Shown piece after piece: positions 2,928-53,364 of a stretch of 64,000 nucleotides of DNA. The notes beneath the pieces are model-generated. The model was not told where the DNA came from and made no database searches. It saw nothing but the letters and a program-made list of their open reading frames with translations. The position numbers and the translations under genes are program-made. The first letter of the stretch is position 1. Every line of letters starts with the position of its first letter. The DNA is taken from assembly GCA_027459645.1 (NCBI GenBank), contig DAIDHQ010000004.1, forward strand, positions 62,001 through 126,000, in the 5' to 3' direction. Origin of the DNA: Vulcanimicrobiota bacterium. GTDB lineage: Bacteria > Vulcanimicrobiota > Vulcanimicrobiia > Vulcanimicrobiales > Vulcanimicrobiaceae.

Positions 2928-4943
2928 TTACCCTCCATGGCGAGGAAACGAAACGTGGCGGCAGCTTGTCGCGCGCGTTCCGAACGGAAGGATGAGGCCG
3001 ACGGAGACGCGAGCGGGCGGCCCGTAGCGGTCGATGCTGGAAAGGTAGCGAGCGTTCGTCAGATTGTCCGCGGAAAACAGCACGCGCGCCCCGTCGCGGA
3101 GCGGAGCGCTCGCGCGGACCCCGGCGACCACCGACGTGCCGAGCGGTTCTCGGTTGAGATCGTCGGCGAACGTTTGTCCGAGATAGGCGACCGTAAAGCC
3201 GAATTGCGTCGCGCCGGCTCGCGTGTCGAACGACGCCGACGCGGCCGCTTCCGGCACGTAGGGAAGCTTCTTGCCGATCGTCGCCGGTTCGCCCGCCGTC
3301 ACGCGGGCGTTCTGTTCGGTCGCACTCAGGGTTACGCTCGAACATGCGGAGAGCCGGTGCGTGTAGGTTGCGATGAGCCCGTCGGTTTGGGTGTGCGCGA
3401 TGTTGCTGCGAATCTGATGCGTCGCATCGACCGTGGTGAAACCGATCGCATCGCTCACAAACGTACGAACGAGATCCGCGGAGAGTTCTTCGGAACCCCG
3501 CGCCCAATCGAGTCCCGCGTCGATCGAGGAACTTCGCTCTGGAACGAGATAGGGATTGGGAAGATAGGAGACCGGACCGATGACGTACCCGTGCACGAGC
3601 TCGTTGAGAAACGGCGCGCGGAAGCCGGTTCCGGCGGACGCGCGAAATGCAAGCTGCGGCGTCAGGTCGTAGCGCAGGGCCGCTCTGGGCGAGAGCGCGC
3701 GGTCCGTATGCGGAACGATCGAGGTCGCGATCCCGCCGGAAAACACGGTGGCGCGCGGCAACGAGATCGCGCTGCCTGCGATACCGGCGACGGCTTCTCC
3801 GCGCCGGAAACGCCACGTGTTTTGAAGGGCAAGGTCCTCGACGTGCTGCGTTCCGCTCCCATAGGCGCTCGTTGCGTTACTCGCGCTGAGCTGGTCGCTC
3901 ACGCCGCCGACGGAGCGCGCATCGGCGCGCGCGGCAAAGGTTCCGCTACGCCGGTCGACGGTCCATTGGAGGATCGCGCCGCTTTCGTGGGTGGGCACGT
4001 ACTGCGTGTAGAGCAAGGTTCCCGGCGCGGCCGATCGATCGGCGCGATTCGTAACGAAGGTATTGCGCACGTAGATGTTTGCGCTCAACGAAGCGTTCGC
4101 CGAGCTCCGGTCGATCGTGAGGTGATGTTGCCCGAAGTCGCGCCAAAAATCGTAGTTCGGGCGCCCTTCCTGCTGGTAGTCCCACGCTCCGCGATATCCG
4201 TACTCGATGCTGGTCGAGCTCGAAGCCGCATAGCGAAACTTCAACGAAACGAGCTTCGCGCGTGAAAGCGCCGGGGTGTCGATCGGGCTTTGGTAGCCTG
4301 GCGGAAGGTCGAAGTAGGAAGATTGCTGTTGCGTCGCCGCGATTGACGCCGTGAGCTTCGACGACAGGGGCGCCGTGGCGAGCGTCGCGAGATCGAGCGC
4401 ATCGTGCGTTCCGGCGGCGGCTTGAAGGAAACCGGCCGGCGTTTGCGCTTGATGCGGTGCGAACGTATCGAGTTCGAGTACGCCGCCGATCGCGCCGGAG
4501 CCGTAGAGTGCCGACCCCGGTCCGCGCAAGAGTTCGGCGCGCGTCAGATCGATGGCGGGATAGGCCGCCCAATCCACTTGGCCGCCGAAAGCGTCTTGCG
4601 CGGGAATGCCGTCGACCAGAATCACGCCGCGATCGTTGCCGGCTCCGGCAAACGAGACGCGCAACTGGCCGTAGTTGGTGAAAGCGCTGTTACTTCGATT
4701 CCGATCGAACCCAGGGAGTGCGCGGAGCGCGGCATCGCCCGTAACCGACGGCATCGATCGCAGTTGCGCGGCGTCGAGCAGCGATGCACCCAGAGGCAAG
4801 CGATGCATCGATTGCGGCGTTCCCGTCGCCACACGTACGCGTTCGATCACCGGCGGCATGGTCGGCGCCGGTGAGGGGGAGGGCGACAACGCAGGAGCAG
4901 CGGCGACAATAATCGCCGCTGCGGCAAGAGCCATCTGCATCAC
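2928..4943 (-). CDS. TonB-dependent outer-membrane receptor
   Basis: This 671-residue protein has a signal peptide, a proline-rich linker, a plug domain (about residues 45-160, with ILVDGIPAQDAFGG and LLRGPGSALYGSGAIGG) and a beta-barrel ending in a terminal aromatic strand. The plug signatures are typical of TonB-dependent receptors, which import siderophores, vitamins or similar ligands using TonB/ExbBD energy. No TonB, ABC or periplasmic binding gene lies beside it, so the ligand cannot be inferred. Two small exported proteins follow in the same direction. Confidence 0.9.
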   Translation of the reverse strand: MMQMALAAAAIIVAAAPALSPSPSPAPTMPPVIERVRVATGTPQSMHRLPLGASLLDAAQLRSMPSVTGDAALRALPGFDRNRSNSAFTNYGQLRVSFAGAGNDRGVILVDGIPAQDAFGGQVDWAAYPAIDLTRAELLRGPGSALYGSGAIGGVLELDTFAPHQAQTPAGFLQAAAGTHDALDLATLATAPLSSKLTASIAATQQQSSYFDLPPGYQSPIDTPALSRAKLVSLKFRYAASSSTSIEYGYRGAWDYQQEGRPNYDFWRDFGQHHLTIDRSSANASLSANIYVRNTFVTNRADRSAAPGTLLYTQYVPTHESGAILQWTVDRRSGTFAARADARSVGGVSDQLSASNATSAYGSGTQHVEDLALQNTWRFRRGEAVAGIAGSAISLPRATVFSGGIATSIVPHTDRALSPRAALRYDLTPQLAFRASAGTGFRAPFLNELVHGYVIGPVSYLPNPYLVPERSSSIDAGLDWARGSEELSADLVRTFVSDAIGFTTVDATHQIRSNIAHTQTDGLIATYTHRLSACSSVTLSATEQNARVTAGEPATIGKKLPYVPEAAASASFDTRAGATQFGFTVAYLGQTFADDLNREPLGTSVVAGVRASAPLRDGARVLFSADNLTNARYLSSIDRYGPPARVSVGLILPFGTRATSCRHVSFPRHGG

Positions 4944-48578: not shown

Positions 48579-49721
48579 TCAGGTCGTGTGCCCGCCCGCC
48601 TCCTTGATGAGCCGTGGCTCGGGCGCACGCAATAGCGGCCGTTCGAAGAGATACGTCACCAGTGCCGCTTCGGCAATCGTGACCGCGAACGCTAGAACGG
48701 TAAACGAGAGCTGCCAGTTCGGATCGAAGTGCGGATCGGTTCCGTGGTAGGGAGGCAGGCGCCAATGCAACATCTCCCGCGCGATCATCTGATGGTAGAG
48801 ATAGAGATTGTAGGAGATGATGGCGAGAAACCGCAGCGGCGGATTCGCGAGAACGATCTCGAACCAGCGCGGCGCGCAGAGCGATCCATAGGCGATCGCG
48901 GCGAAACTCAAACCGTAGAGTGCGCGCGTCCAGATCTGTCCCGCCTCTTCCCAGTTGGGATGCAGGCGGTAGCCGTAGATGTTCTGCAGCAGGATGGCGA
49001 GCGCGACCCAGCCGGCGAGCGCGATCGCGATCGACGCGAGGTTGAAACGCGAGGCGCGTACGCGATGCCCGGTGCGTACGAAGAGCAGCGCGCAGATCAT
49101 GCCGGTCGCGAAGATGTCGATGTATCCCGGCAGATTTTCGGAATACATGGTGAAGGTGGTCGTGAAGCAGCAATGCGCGGTAAACGCGCGCCAGGCAAGT
49201 GCGATGGCGATCATGACGCCGGCCGTGATCCACGGCGCGCGGCGGAAGAAGAACCACACGAGCGGGAAGATCGCGTAGAACTCGACCTCGACCGCAAGCG
49301 TCCACAATACGCCGTTGATCGAGCCGTACGTATTCTGCCACCACGTATGGATGAAGAGCAGATGCGTGACGATCTCTTGCAGCGGCGTCGTTCCCCAGCG
49401 CACGGTTGCGGCATAGCCGATCGCGTATGCGACGACGATCGAAAGCACGTACGACGGCATGATCTTCATGAAACGGCGCCAGTAGAAGTGCCGCCACGTC
49501 GGCAGCGGCTGATCCGCCGCTTGCGCTCGCAAGAACGGATACGAGATGACGAAGCCGCTCAAGAAAAAGAAGAGGTGAACGCCGATGAAGCCCGTCTCGG
49601 GCACGAACTCCAGCCAATGCCACGGCGCTTGCAGCCACGAGATCTCCCACACGTGGTACCACAAGACGAGCAGTACAGCGACGCCGCGCATCCCATCGAG
49701 AACACCGAGCCGGTCTTTCAT
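48579..49721 (-). CDS. Acyltransferase family 3 (OafA/YrhL-type)
   Basis: This 380-residue membrane protein has about ten helices and the acyltransferase-3 signature (GMRGVAVLLVLWYHVWE with the catalytic His, then HLFFFLSGFVISYPFL and FYWRRFMKIMPSY). Such enzymes add acetyl or other acyl groups to sugars, lipids or peptidoglycan. It is divergent from the membrane triplet operon; the 76-base spacer holds the operator described at 49773-49802. The two prepilin-like genes follow within 2 bases. Confidence 0.93.
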   Translation of the reverse strand: MKDRLGVLDGMRGVAVLLVLWYHVWEISWLQAPWHWLEFVPETGFIGVHLFFFLSGFVISYPFLRAQAADQPLPTWRHFYWRRFMKIMPSYVLSIVVAYAIGYAATVRWGTTPLQEIVTHLLFIHTWWQNTYGSINGVLWTLAVEVEFYAIFPLVWFFFRRAPWITAGVMIAIALAWRAFTAHCCFTTTFTMYSENLPGYIDIFATGMICALLFVRTGHRVRASRFNLASIAIALAGWVALAILLQNIYGYRLHPNWEEAGQIWTRALYGLSFAAIAYGSLCAPRWFEIVLANPPLRFLAIISYNLYLYHQMIAREMLHWRLPPYHGTDPHFDPNWQLSFTVLAFAVTIAEAALVTYLFERPLLRAPEPRLIKEAGGHTT

Positions 49722-49758
49722 GCCGCCGATTTCATCCGGGTGCGATTGTTCTAAGCCA

Positions 49759-49788
49759 TTGACACAAAACCTGTCATTGTATTAGGAT
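49759..49788 (+). promoter_or_regulatory. Promoter of the membrane triplet operon
   Basis: TTGACA (49759-49764) and TAGGAT (49783-49788) are separated by 18 bases. The predicted transcript start (about 49795) lies only about three bases before the ATG at 49798, so the message is nearly leaderless. The -10 sits exactly in the centre of the operator described next. Confidence 0.65.
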
Positions 49789-49802
49789 GTCGATACAATG
49801 AC
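49773..49802. promoter_or_regulatory. Perfect operator over -10 and start codon
   Basis: GTCATTGTAT (49773-49782) and ATACAATGAC (49793-49802) are perfect 10-base inverted arms around a 10-base centre. The centre contains the -10, and the right arm contains the ATG of the first triplet gene. A bound repressor would block both RNA polymerase and the message start. The likely repressor is the YtrA-type GntR protein encoded at 52241 in the same operon. Confidence 0.8.
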
Positions 49803-50613
49803 GTACAGCCCTTGGGCAAACCCGCTCGTCCCGTATATTCCGCTGGTGGTCGGCGGTGTGGTCATGATGCTTGCCCTCATCGGAGAACGTTCGCTACTGG
49901 GGGACGAGCGAACGCTGTTTGCAAACGCCGTCGAAGGCGCGAGCCCCGAGGCCAAGAGCCGCATCGCCGCGGCGATCGAACGGCGGCGCCGCGACGAACG
50001 CTTGCCGCGCGTGCCCTTTCTATTCGGCGGAGCGCTTCAGCTCGGCATCGGCGTACTCTCCGCCGCGCGCATGCTCGATCCGGGGATCGCGATCGGCGTT
50101 ATGCTCGCCATCTATGTGGCGATCATGAGCGTGCAGTGTCTGTCGGCTCGCCGGAGCGAGCGCGGCGTTCGCGTTGCAGCGCTCTCGCCCCGGCGCGCGG
50201 TCGCAATCGTGTCGCCGTGGGCCTTCGCGGTGCCTCTAGGATCGATAGCGCTCGCTCTGTACGTGATGTACCGCTTCGGACCAAGCGTGGCGATGCTGCT
50301 CGCCCTGGCCGTCTCGCTGGTCGCGCTCGCCATCGCGCCGTTGCTCGCGCGCACGCCGGCCATTCTCTCCGGCGACGACGTCGTTGCCGATGAGATCGTC
50401 GATGAGAAGGTGCGCGGCTCGCGACTGCGCCAGATGCTGCTGATCGCCGGGTACGCGCCGTTGATCGTTTCATATGCCGTCATGCCGGCGCACGGCAACG
50501 ACGCCAGCTTCATCCACAGCATGTGGATGATCTCGTTGACGTTCGGATTGGTCCTCTCGGCTCGTGCCGTCAAATTCGGTCCGAGAGATTTGCAAAGGAT
50601 GTTCCCGTCGTGA
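49798..50613 (+). CDS. Triplet membrane protein 1 (seven predicted helices)
   Basis: A 271-residue protein with about seven membrane helices (near 12-32, 73-93, 95-116, 138-162, 163-186, 218-236, 247-266). A charged 35-residue loop follows helix 1. Two motifs are shared with the next two genes: LSPRRAVAIVSPW before helix 4, and SGDDVVADEIVDEKVRGSR between helices 5 and 6. No known family. The ATG lies inside the operator; no SD is seen, as expected for a leaderless message. Its stop overlaps the next GTG (GTGA). Confidence 0.75.
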   Translation: MTYSPWANPLVPYIPLVVGGVVMMLALIGERSLLGDERTLFANAVEGASPEAKSRIAAAIERRRRDERLPRVPFLFGGALQLGIGVLSAARMLDPGIAIGVMLAIYVAIMSVQCLSARRSERGVRVAALSPRRAVAIVSPWAFAVPLGSIALALYVMYRFGPSVAMLLALAVSLVALAIAPLLARTPAILSGDDVVADEIVDEKVRGSRLRQMLLIAGYAPLIVSYAVMPAHGNDASFIHSMWMISLTFGLVLSARAVKFGPRDLQRMFPS

Positions 50614-51425
50614 TACACCCCACCTCAATTCCCCCCACCGTGGAAAATGCCGTAGCGCTTGCGTTTATCTTGGGCATGGGCTCTATCGTTGCGAGCCGTT
50701 TGCCGACGCTCTTCGGCGACGACCGGAAGATTTTCGCGAGGACGTTCTGGCGCTACGGCGCCGTCTTCGGCGAGCGTCTTGGAGCGGCGATCGATCGGCG
50801 CGCCGCCTACGAAATCGTCGATCGACGCGTCGTGTGGGTAACGACCGCGGTCGTCGCGATCGTCTATTGGATGCTGATGGTGGACCGTCTGTCGAAGCCA
50901 AACGCACTGGCCCTCATGTTCGCCGCTTTTGTGACGGGTATGGCCTTGCAGGCATTGACGACAAAGCGAAAAGGTAGGCTGCACGTCGCGGTGCTGCAGC
51001 CGCGCGATCCGCATCGCATCGTGCCGCCCTGGCTCTTTCTTTTACCGGCGGTCGTGTGGTGCGCCGGCGCAATCGTTGCCGTCATGCACCACGCCGTCCT
51101 TACGACCGGCATCGTCCTCGTGGCGTCGCTCGGTGCCTTTTACGCCAGCTATATCATCGCAGCGGCGCCGCCGATCATCGCTTCGGACGATCCGCAAATG
51201 GACGCGATCGTGGACATGAAGGTTCGCGGATATCGCATGCGTTTCGTACTTCTCATCGGGGCGCTCGCACCGATCGCTCTCGTGACCGCGCTCGAACCCT
51301 CGAACCATTCCGTAACGATGGCATTCGTCATTGCCCTTGCGGCAATTGCGTGGTGGTCGAAACGCCAAGGGAACTTTACCGCGTCCGAAATCGCCGCGAT
51401 CGTTTCTTCCACCGAGGGAGCCTAA
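50610..51425 (+). CDS. Triplet membrane protein 2 (seven predicted helices)
   Basis: A 271-residue paralog of triplet protein 1 starting at GTG 50610, overlapping its stop by four bases. Same seven-helix plan and length. The shared motifs are LQPRDPHRIVPPW and SDDPQMDAIVDMKVRGYR. The loop after helix 1 is a shorter charged version (KIFARTFWRYGAVFGER). No enzyme or transporter signature was recognised. Coupled translation suggests a fixed ratio to protein 1. Confidence 0.75.
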   Translation: MIHPTSIPPTVENAVALAFILGMGSIVASRLPTLFGDDRKIFARTFWRYGAVFGERLGAAIDRRAAYEIVDRRVVWVTTAVVAIVYWMLMVDRLSKPNALALMFAAFVTGMALQALTTKRKGRLHVAVLQPRDPHRIVPPWLFLLPAVVWCAGAIVAVMHHAVLTTGIVLVASLGAFYASYIIAAAPPIIASDDPQMDAIVDMKVRGYRMRFVLLIGALAPIALVTALEPSNHSVTMAFVIALAAIAWWSKRQGNFTASEIAAIVSSTEGA

Positions 51426-51426
51426 C

Positions 51427-52239
51427 ATGGACTTTGCTGCCGAATTTACGCGTTGGTACATCGGCGCGTTCTCCGTATTCTTCGGCATTCGAACGTTGTG
51501 GCGGGGCGCCGATACATTCCGTGCGGGTTGCTATTTCAAGGCGGAGAAGCGGGACCGAACGCTCGGCGAGCGGTTCGCCGCGGTCGTCGCTCGACGTGAA
51601 GAGCTCGAGGGCGATGCCACGCCGGCTGCGCGCATGCTCGGCGTCGCGGCGGTCGCCATCGGCGTGCTCGTGTTGATCCAAACGATTGTGCCGCTCGTTG
51701 CCTACGCGCTGCTCTGCGTCGTACTCGCCGTGACGATGTCGTACGTCTATTCGCAGATGCGAAATCGAAGCGAACGCCGGGCCGCATCGCTGCAGCCGCG
51801 AACCGCCACGACGACCGTCCCGGGAATCTGGTATGCCGGAGGAATCCTGGCCGCGCTTTTACCGCTCGCCTTCGCGATCGTCCCTTCGCTCGTGCAAACG
51901 CAACCGGTCGTGCCGGCGGTGATTATCGCACTCGCGTGCACGGCGATCGTGTATACGGCCGCGCGCTTGTCGCAGATGGCCGCGTTGCTCGCGGGCGACG
52001 ATCCGGAGATCGAACTCTACGTCGACGACCGTCTGCGCCGGATGCGCGTCTCGTCGCTCTTGATGCTCGCGTACGCGGTCAGTTTCGTGTTTATCGTCTT
52101 CGAGCTTGCGCCGGAACATCGCCTCACCGGGGCGTCGCTCGCCGTCGGCGCGAGTTCTTTCGTACTCCTTGCGGCGTTTAGTGCGTGGCTTGCGGTCAAA
52201 TTTTTCTTCGGACGGATGAGCGACAAGCTTCCCGCATAA
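51427..52239 (+). CDS. Triplet membrane protein 3 (seven predicted helices)
   Basis: A 270-residue paralog starting at ATG 51427, one base after the previous stop. Same seven-helix plan. The shared motifs are SLQPRTATTTVPGIW and GDDPEIELYVDDRLRRMR, both more divergent. One base separates it from the GntR gene. Equal lengths of 271, 271 and 270 residues and matched motif order point to two rounds of tandem duplication. Confidence 0.75.
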   Translation: MDFAAEFTRWYIGAFSVFFGIRTLWRGADTFRAGCYFKAEKRDRTLGERFAAVVARREELEGDATPAARMLGVAAVAIGVLVLIQTIVPLVAYALLCVVLAVTMSYVYSQMRNRSERRAASLQPRTATTTVPGIWYAGGILAALLPLAFAIVPSLVQTQPVVPAVIIALACTAIVYTAARLSQMAALLAGDDPEIELYVDDRLRRMRVSSLLMLAYAVSFVFIVFELAPEHRLTGASLAVGASSFVLLAAFSAWLAVKFFFGRMSDKLPA

Positions 52240-52240
52240 C

Positions 52241-52618
52241 ATGGCATCGCTCATCGCGGTCGATCCGGATCTGGAAACGCCGCCCTATCAGCAGATCTTC
52301 GAACAGATTCGCGCGTCGATCGAGCGGGGCGAATTGCCCTCCGACGCGCCCTTGCCGACGGTGCGCCAGTTGGCCGGCGACCTCGGCGTCGCCCCTAACA
52401 CGGTAGCGCGTGCCTATGCCGATCTCGCGGAAGCGGGATGGATCGTTGCCGAGGGGCGCCGTGGAACGCGGGTCGCGCCGAAGACGCCCGCGCACGATCG
52501 CCGCGCACGCCATCAATCGCTGATTGAAACGGTATCGCATTTTATCGAAACGCTGCGTCATCGCGGATATACGTCCGAAGAGATCGGCGCGGCCCTTGAC
52601 AGTTTGCGGCGCTCGTGA
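52241..52618 (+). CDS. YtrA-type GntR transcriptional repressor
   Basis: A 125-residue regulator with an N-terminal GntR winged helix (PPYQQIFEQIRASIERGELP, LPTVRQLAGDLGVAPNTVARAYADLAEAGWI) and a short helical C-terminal tail of about 40 residues, the length typical of the YtrA subgroup, which has no ligand domain. YtrA regulators usually sit in operons with transporter or membrane genes and repress them. It starts two bases after triplet gene 3, so the operon is probably autoregulated through the 49773-49802 palindrome. Confidence 0.9.
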   Translation: MASLIAVDPDLETPPYQQIFEQIRASIERGELPSDAPLPTVRQLAGDLGVAPNTVARAYADLAEAGWIVAEGRRGTRVAPKTPAHDRRARHQSLIETVSHFIETLRHRGYTSEEIGAALDSLRRS

Positions 52619-52683: not shown

Positions 52684-53364
52684 ATGTATAACGAGCGGAT
52701 GGAACGGTCGGCTGGGTGGTCGGGCATCGCCTTTATCGTCATGGTCTTGCTGGCGGCGTTCTTGCCGGGCGTGCCACCTCCGCCGGATACCCCGAGCCCG
52801 GTGCTGAGCGCCTGGCTCGACGGGCACCGGATGTTGTGGACCCTCGGCGGCTGGCTGATCTTTCCGGGGGTGGCTTTCTTCTTATGGTGGCTGGTGCAGC
52901 TGCGGGCCTATCTGCGGCTCGCGCCCCAGATCGATGACGGCTTACCGACCTATATGCTGACGGGCGGCATCTTGGCCGCCGTCGTGGTGACGCTCGCGGC
53001 GACCGTGCAGGTCGTCATGGGCTTGCAACCCGCGGCGGTCTTCGGGCCGCAGGTCGTGCAGATGCTCTTCGAGACGTTTAACGCTCTAGGAGCGATGGTC
53101 TTTATCCCGAGCACCGTGGTCGTTTTCGCGGCATCGCACAGCGGGCTGCGCCATCAGAGCCTTCCGCGGGGGCTTGCCTACTGGGGCTATCTGACGTCGG
53201 TGGGCTGCGCGATCTCGACCCTCTCGGTCTTTAGCATTTCCGGGTTCATGGCGGTGGGATACGTCGGTACGGTCGTGCTCGGTCTGCTGCCGTTTGCCAT
53301 CTGGGTTCTGGGCGTCAGCGTGGCGATGATTCGGGCGCCGCGCAGCGGCCAAAACTCGCATTGA
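52684..53364 (+). CDS. DUF4386-like six-helix membrane protein
   Basis: A 226-residue protein starting at ATG 52684 with GGAGG at 52672-52676; upstream starts lie inside the GntR gene. About six membrane helices, with a loop pattern reminiscent of DUF4386 (DGLPTYMLTGGILAAVVVTL), but the match is weak. It lacks the motifs of the triplet and could still be the fifth gene of the operon. Its stop overlaps the rpsL promoter -35. Confidence 0.7.
   Translation: MYNERMERSAGWSGIAFIVMVLLAAFLPGVPPPPDTPSPVLSAWLDGHRMLWTLGGWLIFPGVAFFLWWLVQLRAYLRLAPQIDDGLPTYMLTGGILAAVVVTLAATVQVVMGLQPAAVFGPQVVQMLFETFNALGAMVFIPSTVVVFAASHSGLRHQSLPRGLAYWGYLTSVGCAISTLSVFSISGFMAVGYVGTVVLGLLPFAIWVLGVSVAMIRAPRSGQNSH

Follow-up and report, generated by a model that had tools for sequence, protein, structure and literature searches.

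Introduction

GntR-type regulators of the YtrA subfamily are short proteins of about 120-130 aa with a C-terminal domain of about 50 aa and no ligand domain. They repress their own promoter by binding a long palindrome in it whose half-sites are far apart. YtrA genes often regulate ABC transporters, and as of 2019 none of the YtrA regulators had a known ligand of biological relevance (PMC6746942). Operons that combine YtrA with a membrane protein of unassigned function have been described in actinomycetes (the SCO3812-type group) and in Sulfolobales (PMC6746942). In Sulfolobus acidocaldarius, YtrASa (Saci_1851) acts as a repressor at two loci that encode membrane proteins (Saci_1850 and Saci_2078), its own operon and one other, and covers the transcription start (PMC6746942). 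The ytrGABCDEF operon of Bacillus subtilis is repressed by its own YtrA and has membrane components among its products; it responds to cell-wall antibiotics, with induction by lipid II cycle inhibitors (PMC12772383). Its payload is an ABC transporter plus the small membrane protein YtrG, and no seven-helix protein of the family reported here is described there.

Here, we analysed a stretch of DNA of 64,000 nucleotides (the window) that contains three genes for seven-helix membrane proteins (MPs) followed by a gene for a YtrA-type repressor (Table 1). The locus resembles the S. acidocaldarius system in its short YtrA repressor, in the unassigned membrane protein within the operon, in a very small predicted regulon and in an operator predicted to lie over the transcription start. 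In addition, the best solved match of the repressor is YtrASa itself (6sbs, E 2.5e-11). The archaeal YtrA gene, however, is the first of its operon, whereas here YtrA follows the MPs, and the two systems are likened by their layout. With the SCO3812-type actinobacterial pairs, the locus shares a membrane-protein gene directly upstream of YtrA and a similar predicted helix layout, but the similarity is at profile level only and the N- and C-terminal parts remain unaligned; this comparison is based on loci found here (e.g. L181 and L195). The MP-YtrA operon is best read as a variant of the known arrangement of YtrA with a membrane protein. To call it an undescribed system, as the initial annotation did, was an overstatement, given that YtrA operons with membrane proteins had been described (PMC6746942) and that the actinobacterial proteins appear to be remote homologues.

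We favour, at about even odds (0.5), an autorepressed, envelope-protective operon: from within the membrane, the MPs would protect or adjust the envelope. This reading rests on sequence, namely layout, homology, invariant linkage, operator conservation and synteny, from which we infer the repression, the inducing condition and the role of the MPs.

Table 1. Features of the MP-YtrA locus (positions in the window)
Feature	Position	Strand	Remarks
Acyltransferase-3 (OafA-type, PF01757)	48579-49721	-	divergent; common intergenic control region with the operon
Control region, upstream half	49740-49772	+	degenerate half-site TTGTTCTAAGCC; -35 element with half-site TTGACACAAA
Perfect 10+10 inverted repeat	49773-49802	+	GTCATTGTAT-N10-ATACAATGAC; predicted main YtrA operator
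Gene 1, seven-helix MP, 271 aa	49798-50613	+	ATG start
Gene 2, seven-helix MP, 271 aa	50610-51425	+	GTG start; sister of gene 1
Gene 3, seven-helix MP, 270 aa	51427-52239	+	ATG start
YtrA-type GntR repressor gene, 125 aa	52241-52618	+	
Hydrophobic 226-aa protein	52684-53364	+	possible hitchhiking fifth gene; without Pfam match

Genes of the operon

Genes 1 and 2 overlap by 4 nt, and gaps of 1 nt separate gene 2 from gene 3 and gene 3 from the GntR gene. The three MP genes and the YtrA gene form one overlapping operon, in agreement with the protein sizes and gene order given initially. No RNA families were found in the operon region. Residues 15-78 of the GntR protein match PF00392 (E 1e-16) and constitute the N-terminal winged helix-turn-helix. 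Its length of 125 aa and its short C-terminal dimerisation region are those of the YtrA subfamily, and a Pfam search found no second (ligand) domain. Judged by these features, the protein is of the YtrA type and without a ligand domain. The closest GntR relatives come from MAGs titled Candidatus Eremiobacterota, which suggests this phylum for the window as well; further ones are clearly more distant and mostly from Actinobacteria.

The BLASTP comparisons of gene 1 with gene 2 (E 2.9e-17) and of gene 1 with gene 3 (E 1e-5), together with pair alignments that beat hydropathy-preserving local shuffles (Z of 15.8, 4.3 and 6.2), indicate that the three MPs are true homologues. A common profile, which all three helped to build, recovered each of them at E < 1e-54. 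The two motif blocks noticed initially were found as written in all three proteins: LSPR..VSPW (gene 1), LQPR..VPPW (gene 2) or LQPR..VPGIW (gene 3), and DD-6-VD-xx-(V/L)R-xx-R. The seven helices of genes 1 and 2 are backed by alignment and hydropathy. None of the three MPs had a match above the curated cut-offs of Pfam and NCBIfam (e.g. DUF1345, DUF1648, BrkB), and 35 MP homologues searched against Pfam yielded just scattered sub-threshold matches, none of them consistent. The initial impression that the MPs belong to no known family was thus borne out in Pfam, NCBIfam and the PDB, and the searches of Pfam and NCBIfam returned no strong match to any one family.

Distribution and copy number

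The MP profile matched 39 genomes out of 99 in the window's own taxonomic family. Over 149 genomes of the phylum the matches numbered 42, only two of them outside the family. By these matches, the MP-YtrA operon is spread through the uncultured phylum Candidatus Eremiobacterota with one to three MP copies. The intact loci checked comprise the window and 41 measured relatives. In all 42, a YtrA-type gene lies directly downstream of the MP, and a membrane protein stands beside YtrA in place of an ABC transporter. Of the measured relatives, 30 have a 4-nt overlap between the MP stop and the YtrA start. Matches in L012, L013 and L005 were rejected as chance or non-family matches.

Most loci have a single MP, always with the GntR gene; two in a row occur in G042 and G011, and three only in the genome of the window. 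YtrA accompanies the rare doublets and the one triplet as it does the single copies. In the tree, genes 1 and 2 group with the lone MP of G041 (L117), and gene 3 groups with the G042 pair and the lone MPs of L050 and L119. The initial annotation proposed that the three proteins form one heteromeric complex, and the overlapping genes and equal sizes in the window would agree with an obligate assembly. Single MPs are nevertheless the rule, and since both subtypes occur alone elsewhere, we consider an obligate heteromer highly improbable. The best explanation of the copy numbers is that the basic unit is one MP and that the triplet arose by local duplication and divergence.

Promoter and predicted operator

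Both the -10 region and the ATG of gene 1 fall within the inverted repeat, as does the probable start site. The first base of the repeat coincides with the position at which the initial annotation let the system begin, although the repeat itself was absent there. The 40-bp promoter-operator (49759-49798) has its left part within the upstream half of the control region, and its consensus is TTGACACAA-N9-TTGTATTA-N8-ATACAA. The control region is conserved over 39 sites, and the repeat core is kept in relatives; for the repeat, the chance expectation at 3 mismatches is 0.02 per 64 kb. With 3 mismatches allowed, the 40-bp pattern had 32 matches in 99 genomes and the reversed-pattern control had 0. 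Nearly all 40-bp matches precede MP-YtrA operons, a few of which are broken or at contig ends. A short-operator match in L110 (G084), which has neither the downstream half-site nor an MP or GntR gene, is probably due to chance.

The ATG of gene 1 sits inside ATACAATG. The MP starts with the ATG of this sequence, or of a close variant, at 26 sites; the codon lies within the operator and about 10 nt 3' of a TANNNT -10-like element. Given this spacing, the MP mRNA is probably leaderless at gene 1 and at the 26 sites. At several further sites a leader follows this promoter, and three of them contain an AGGAG sequence.

Because of the position of the operator, and because YtrASa covers the transcription start, we infer that YtrA represses its own operon. 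The repressor control claimed initially is supported by the predicted operator, conserved over the promoter, and by the YtrA linkage in 42/42 loci. YtrA would bind the 40-bp region, which takes in the -35 and the -10 as well as the start of the probably leaderless promoter, and would thereby silence the operon, perhaps together with the divergent acyltransferase gene. Envelope disturbance would lift the repression, the MPs would be made along with fresh YtrA, and the latter would reset the switch.

Predicted regulon

The predicted regulon consists of the operon itself and one ABC-2 exporter operon in this genome. Contig C32 of the genome carries a further MP-YtrA pair. About 13 kb from this second pair, at C32:28149 onward (L112:2650-4773), lies a third copy of the operator, which has no mismatch to the 40-bp pattern. 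It precedes genes for an ABC ATPase (PF00005, DrrA1-3_C) and an ABC-2 permease (PF12698), a probable extra regulon member. The link between operator and ABC-2 exporter was found only in this genome.

The genome G001, of the same genus, has the promoter-operator and YtrA between the same neighbours with the MP genes absent (L113:2793-3235), which is most simply explained by deletion. The MP therefore appears to be dispensable there. A 9-codon ORF begins at the former leaderless ATG. In G010 (L115:1040-2100), the MP gene is seemingly broken, and operator and YtrA are intact.

Structure and conserved residues of the MPs

AlphaFold2 modelled gene 3 with seven membrane-length helices (pLDDT 90.7, pTM 0.88). 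The positive-inside rule places three stretches in the cytoplasm, namely the large first loop, the LxPR loop and the GDD segment; the conserved residues on this side are R118, A120, L122, R125, D192, E196, D200, R204 and R207. The most conserved residues of the MPs are the cytoplasmic R57, R118, A120, L122, R125, E196, D200 and R204 and the helical Y93 and A178. Those that are charged (R57, R118, R125, E196, D200, R204) belong to cytoplasmic segments or to the ends of helices, and the residue-conservation analysis found no conserved charge, acidic ones included, in the middle of the membrane. The single bridge residues at 119 and 187 of the model are consistent with contact between the two conserved loops. 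Comparison of the model with solved structures gave nothing convincing (Foldseek best E 0.81; VIA-align Z below 8), a missing match (GPCR and microbial rhodopsin tested for) that does not exclude a fold. Foldseek with an actinobacterial relative of the MPs gave nothing convincing either.

These results bear on the possibility that the MPs are a new permease or exporter family that removes a toxic compound (peptide, antibiotic or lipid), with YtrA sensing the compound directly. The frequent regulation of ABC transporters by YtrA genes (PMC6746942) and the ABC-2 exporter with the same operator in this genome would fit such a role. So would the divergence expected for varying substrates: the mean identity across the same loci is 27% for the MPs and 58% for YtrA. 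Variable substrates would account for the fast divergence of the MPs, but so would weak constraint outside the cytoplasmic motifs. However, an export function would have to be reconciled with conserved charges that are cytoplasmic or at helix ends and never mid-membrane, with the missing transporter fold match and with a YtrA that has no ligand domain, and we regard it as rather unlikely.

The conserved cytoplasmic face could alternatively make the MP a sensor and anti-repressor that captures YtrA at the membrane under envelope stress and so frees the promoter. The capture face would consist of the RxAxLxPR loop and the start of the GDDxxxExxxDxxxR helix. The positive-inside rule puts both motifs in the cytoplasm, and each contains a one-residue beta bridge in the gene 3 model. 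A YtrA without a ligand domain, the translationally coupled linkage of one or more MP genes to each YtrA gene and a predicted regulon that is almost solely the operon would all suit this mechanism. On the other hand, YtrA persists in G001 without any MP, and the YtrA genes of Micromonospora adjoin an unrelated BrkB-type protein, which leaves capture of YtrA by the MP an unlikely explanation.

Conserved neighbours and the envelope

Of 34 related loci, 15 resemble the window in having a divergent acyltransferase-3 gene beside the operon, and acyltransferase-flanked operons often have rpsL-rpsG-fusA downstream. Since these neighbours recur, the location of the operon is probably ancestral and syntenic, not mobile. 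A PF00144 beta-lactamase-fold serine hydrolase is encoded directly 3' of YtrA in seven loci (L137, at 3389-4840, and L138, L140, L142-L145), and the SxxK and YxN motifs are present in the five full-length copies examined.

The conserved neighbours suggest, by association, a function in the envelope, and the envelope theme of the initial annotation is supported by the acyltransferase-3 and the beta-lactamase-fold hydrolase. No direct support emerged for the peptide immunity that was also suggested there. In the favoured envelope-protective operon, the MPs would most likely work in the membrane, protecting or adjusting the envelope beside the O-acyltransferase. Their partners may be the serine hydrolase in some relatives and the same-operator ABC-2 exporter in this genome. 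Against this reading, neighbours are guilt by association, the acyltransferase is found in under half of the loci, and adjacency to rpsL-rpsG-fusA alone could keep the synteny. G001, moreover, does without the MP, and the ABC-2 link is confined to this genome.

The 226-aa protein sits between YtrA and rpsL and has homologues at the same place in two related loci only (L130, 65%; L140, 38%).

Relatives beyond the phylum

A search of genome contigs with an MP-alignment profile gave nothing usable, because no stretch of the MPs was conserved enough. The reach beyond the phylum was therefore probed via the neighbours of YtrA. In many actinobacterial relatives of YtrA, the gene of a multi-helix protein ends at the YtrA start. 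A profile of 16 such upstream proteins matched the Eremiobacterota MP profile with a probability of 93% (E 3.2e-7), and the match spans the core from RxAxLxPR to D..R. In the AlphaFold2 model of a Kribbella protein (pLDDT 77), the helix order is similar and the same two loops form short strands. These comparisons suggest that the proteins upstream of actinobacterial YtrA are remote homologues of the MPs.

With such a range, the MPs might be a widespread receptor class, from Eremiobacterota to Actinobacteria, that senses envelope damage and binds YtrA via the conserved cytoplasmic face. We consider this distinctly unlikely; if true, the MP-YtrA receptor unit would amount to two-protein signalling and would answer how YtrA regulators get their signal. 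The MP family is absent from Pfam, had no solved relative in our searches and seems to reach beyond one phylum. Together with the syntenic envelope genes and with the operator, which can serve as a bioinformatic tag, this defined family offers specific tests of the question of YtrA and its membrane proteins.

The BrkB-family neighbour of YtrA in Micromonospora was considered as a possible MP homologue and was rejected: its profile matched the Eremiobacterota MP profile with 0.2% and became the negative control. The YtrA-type gene lies just 3' of the BrkB-family gene in L180, L186, L189, L194, L196, L201, L202 and L207, and this arrangement is highly conserved across Micromonospora species.
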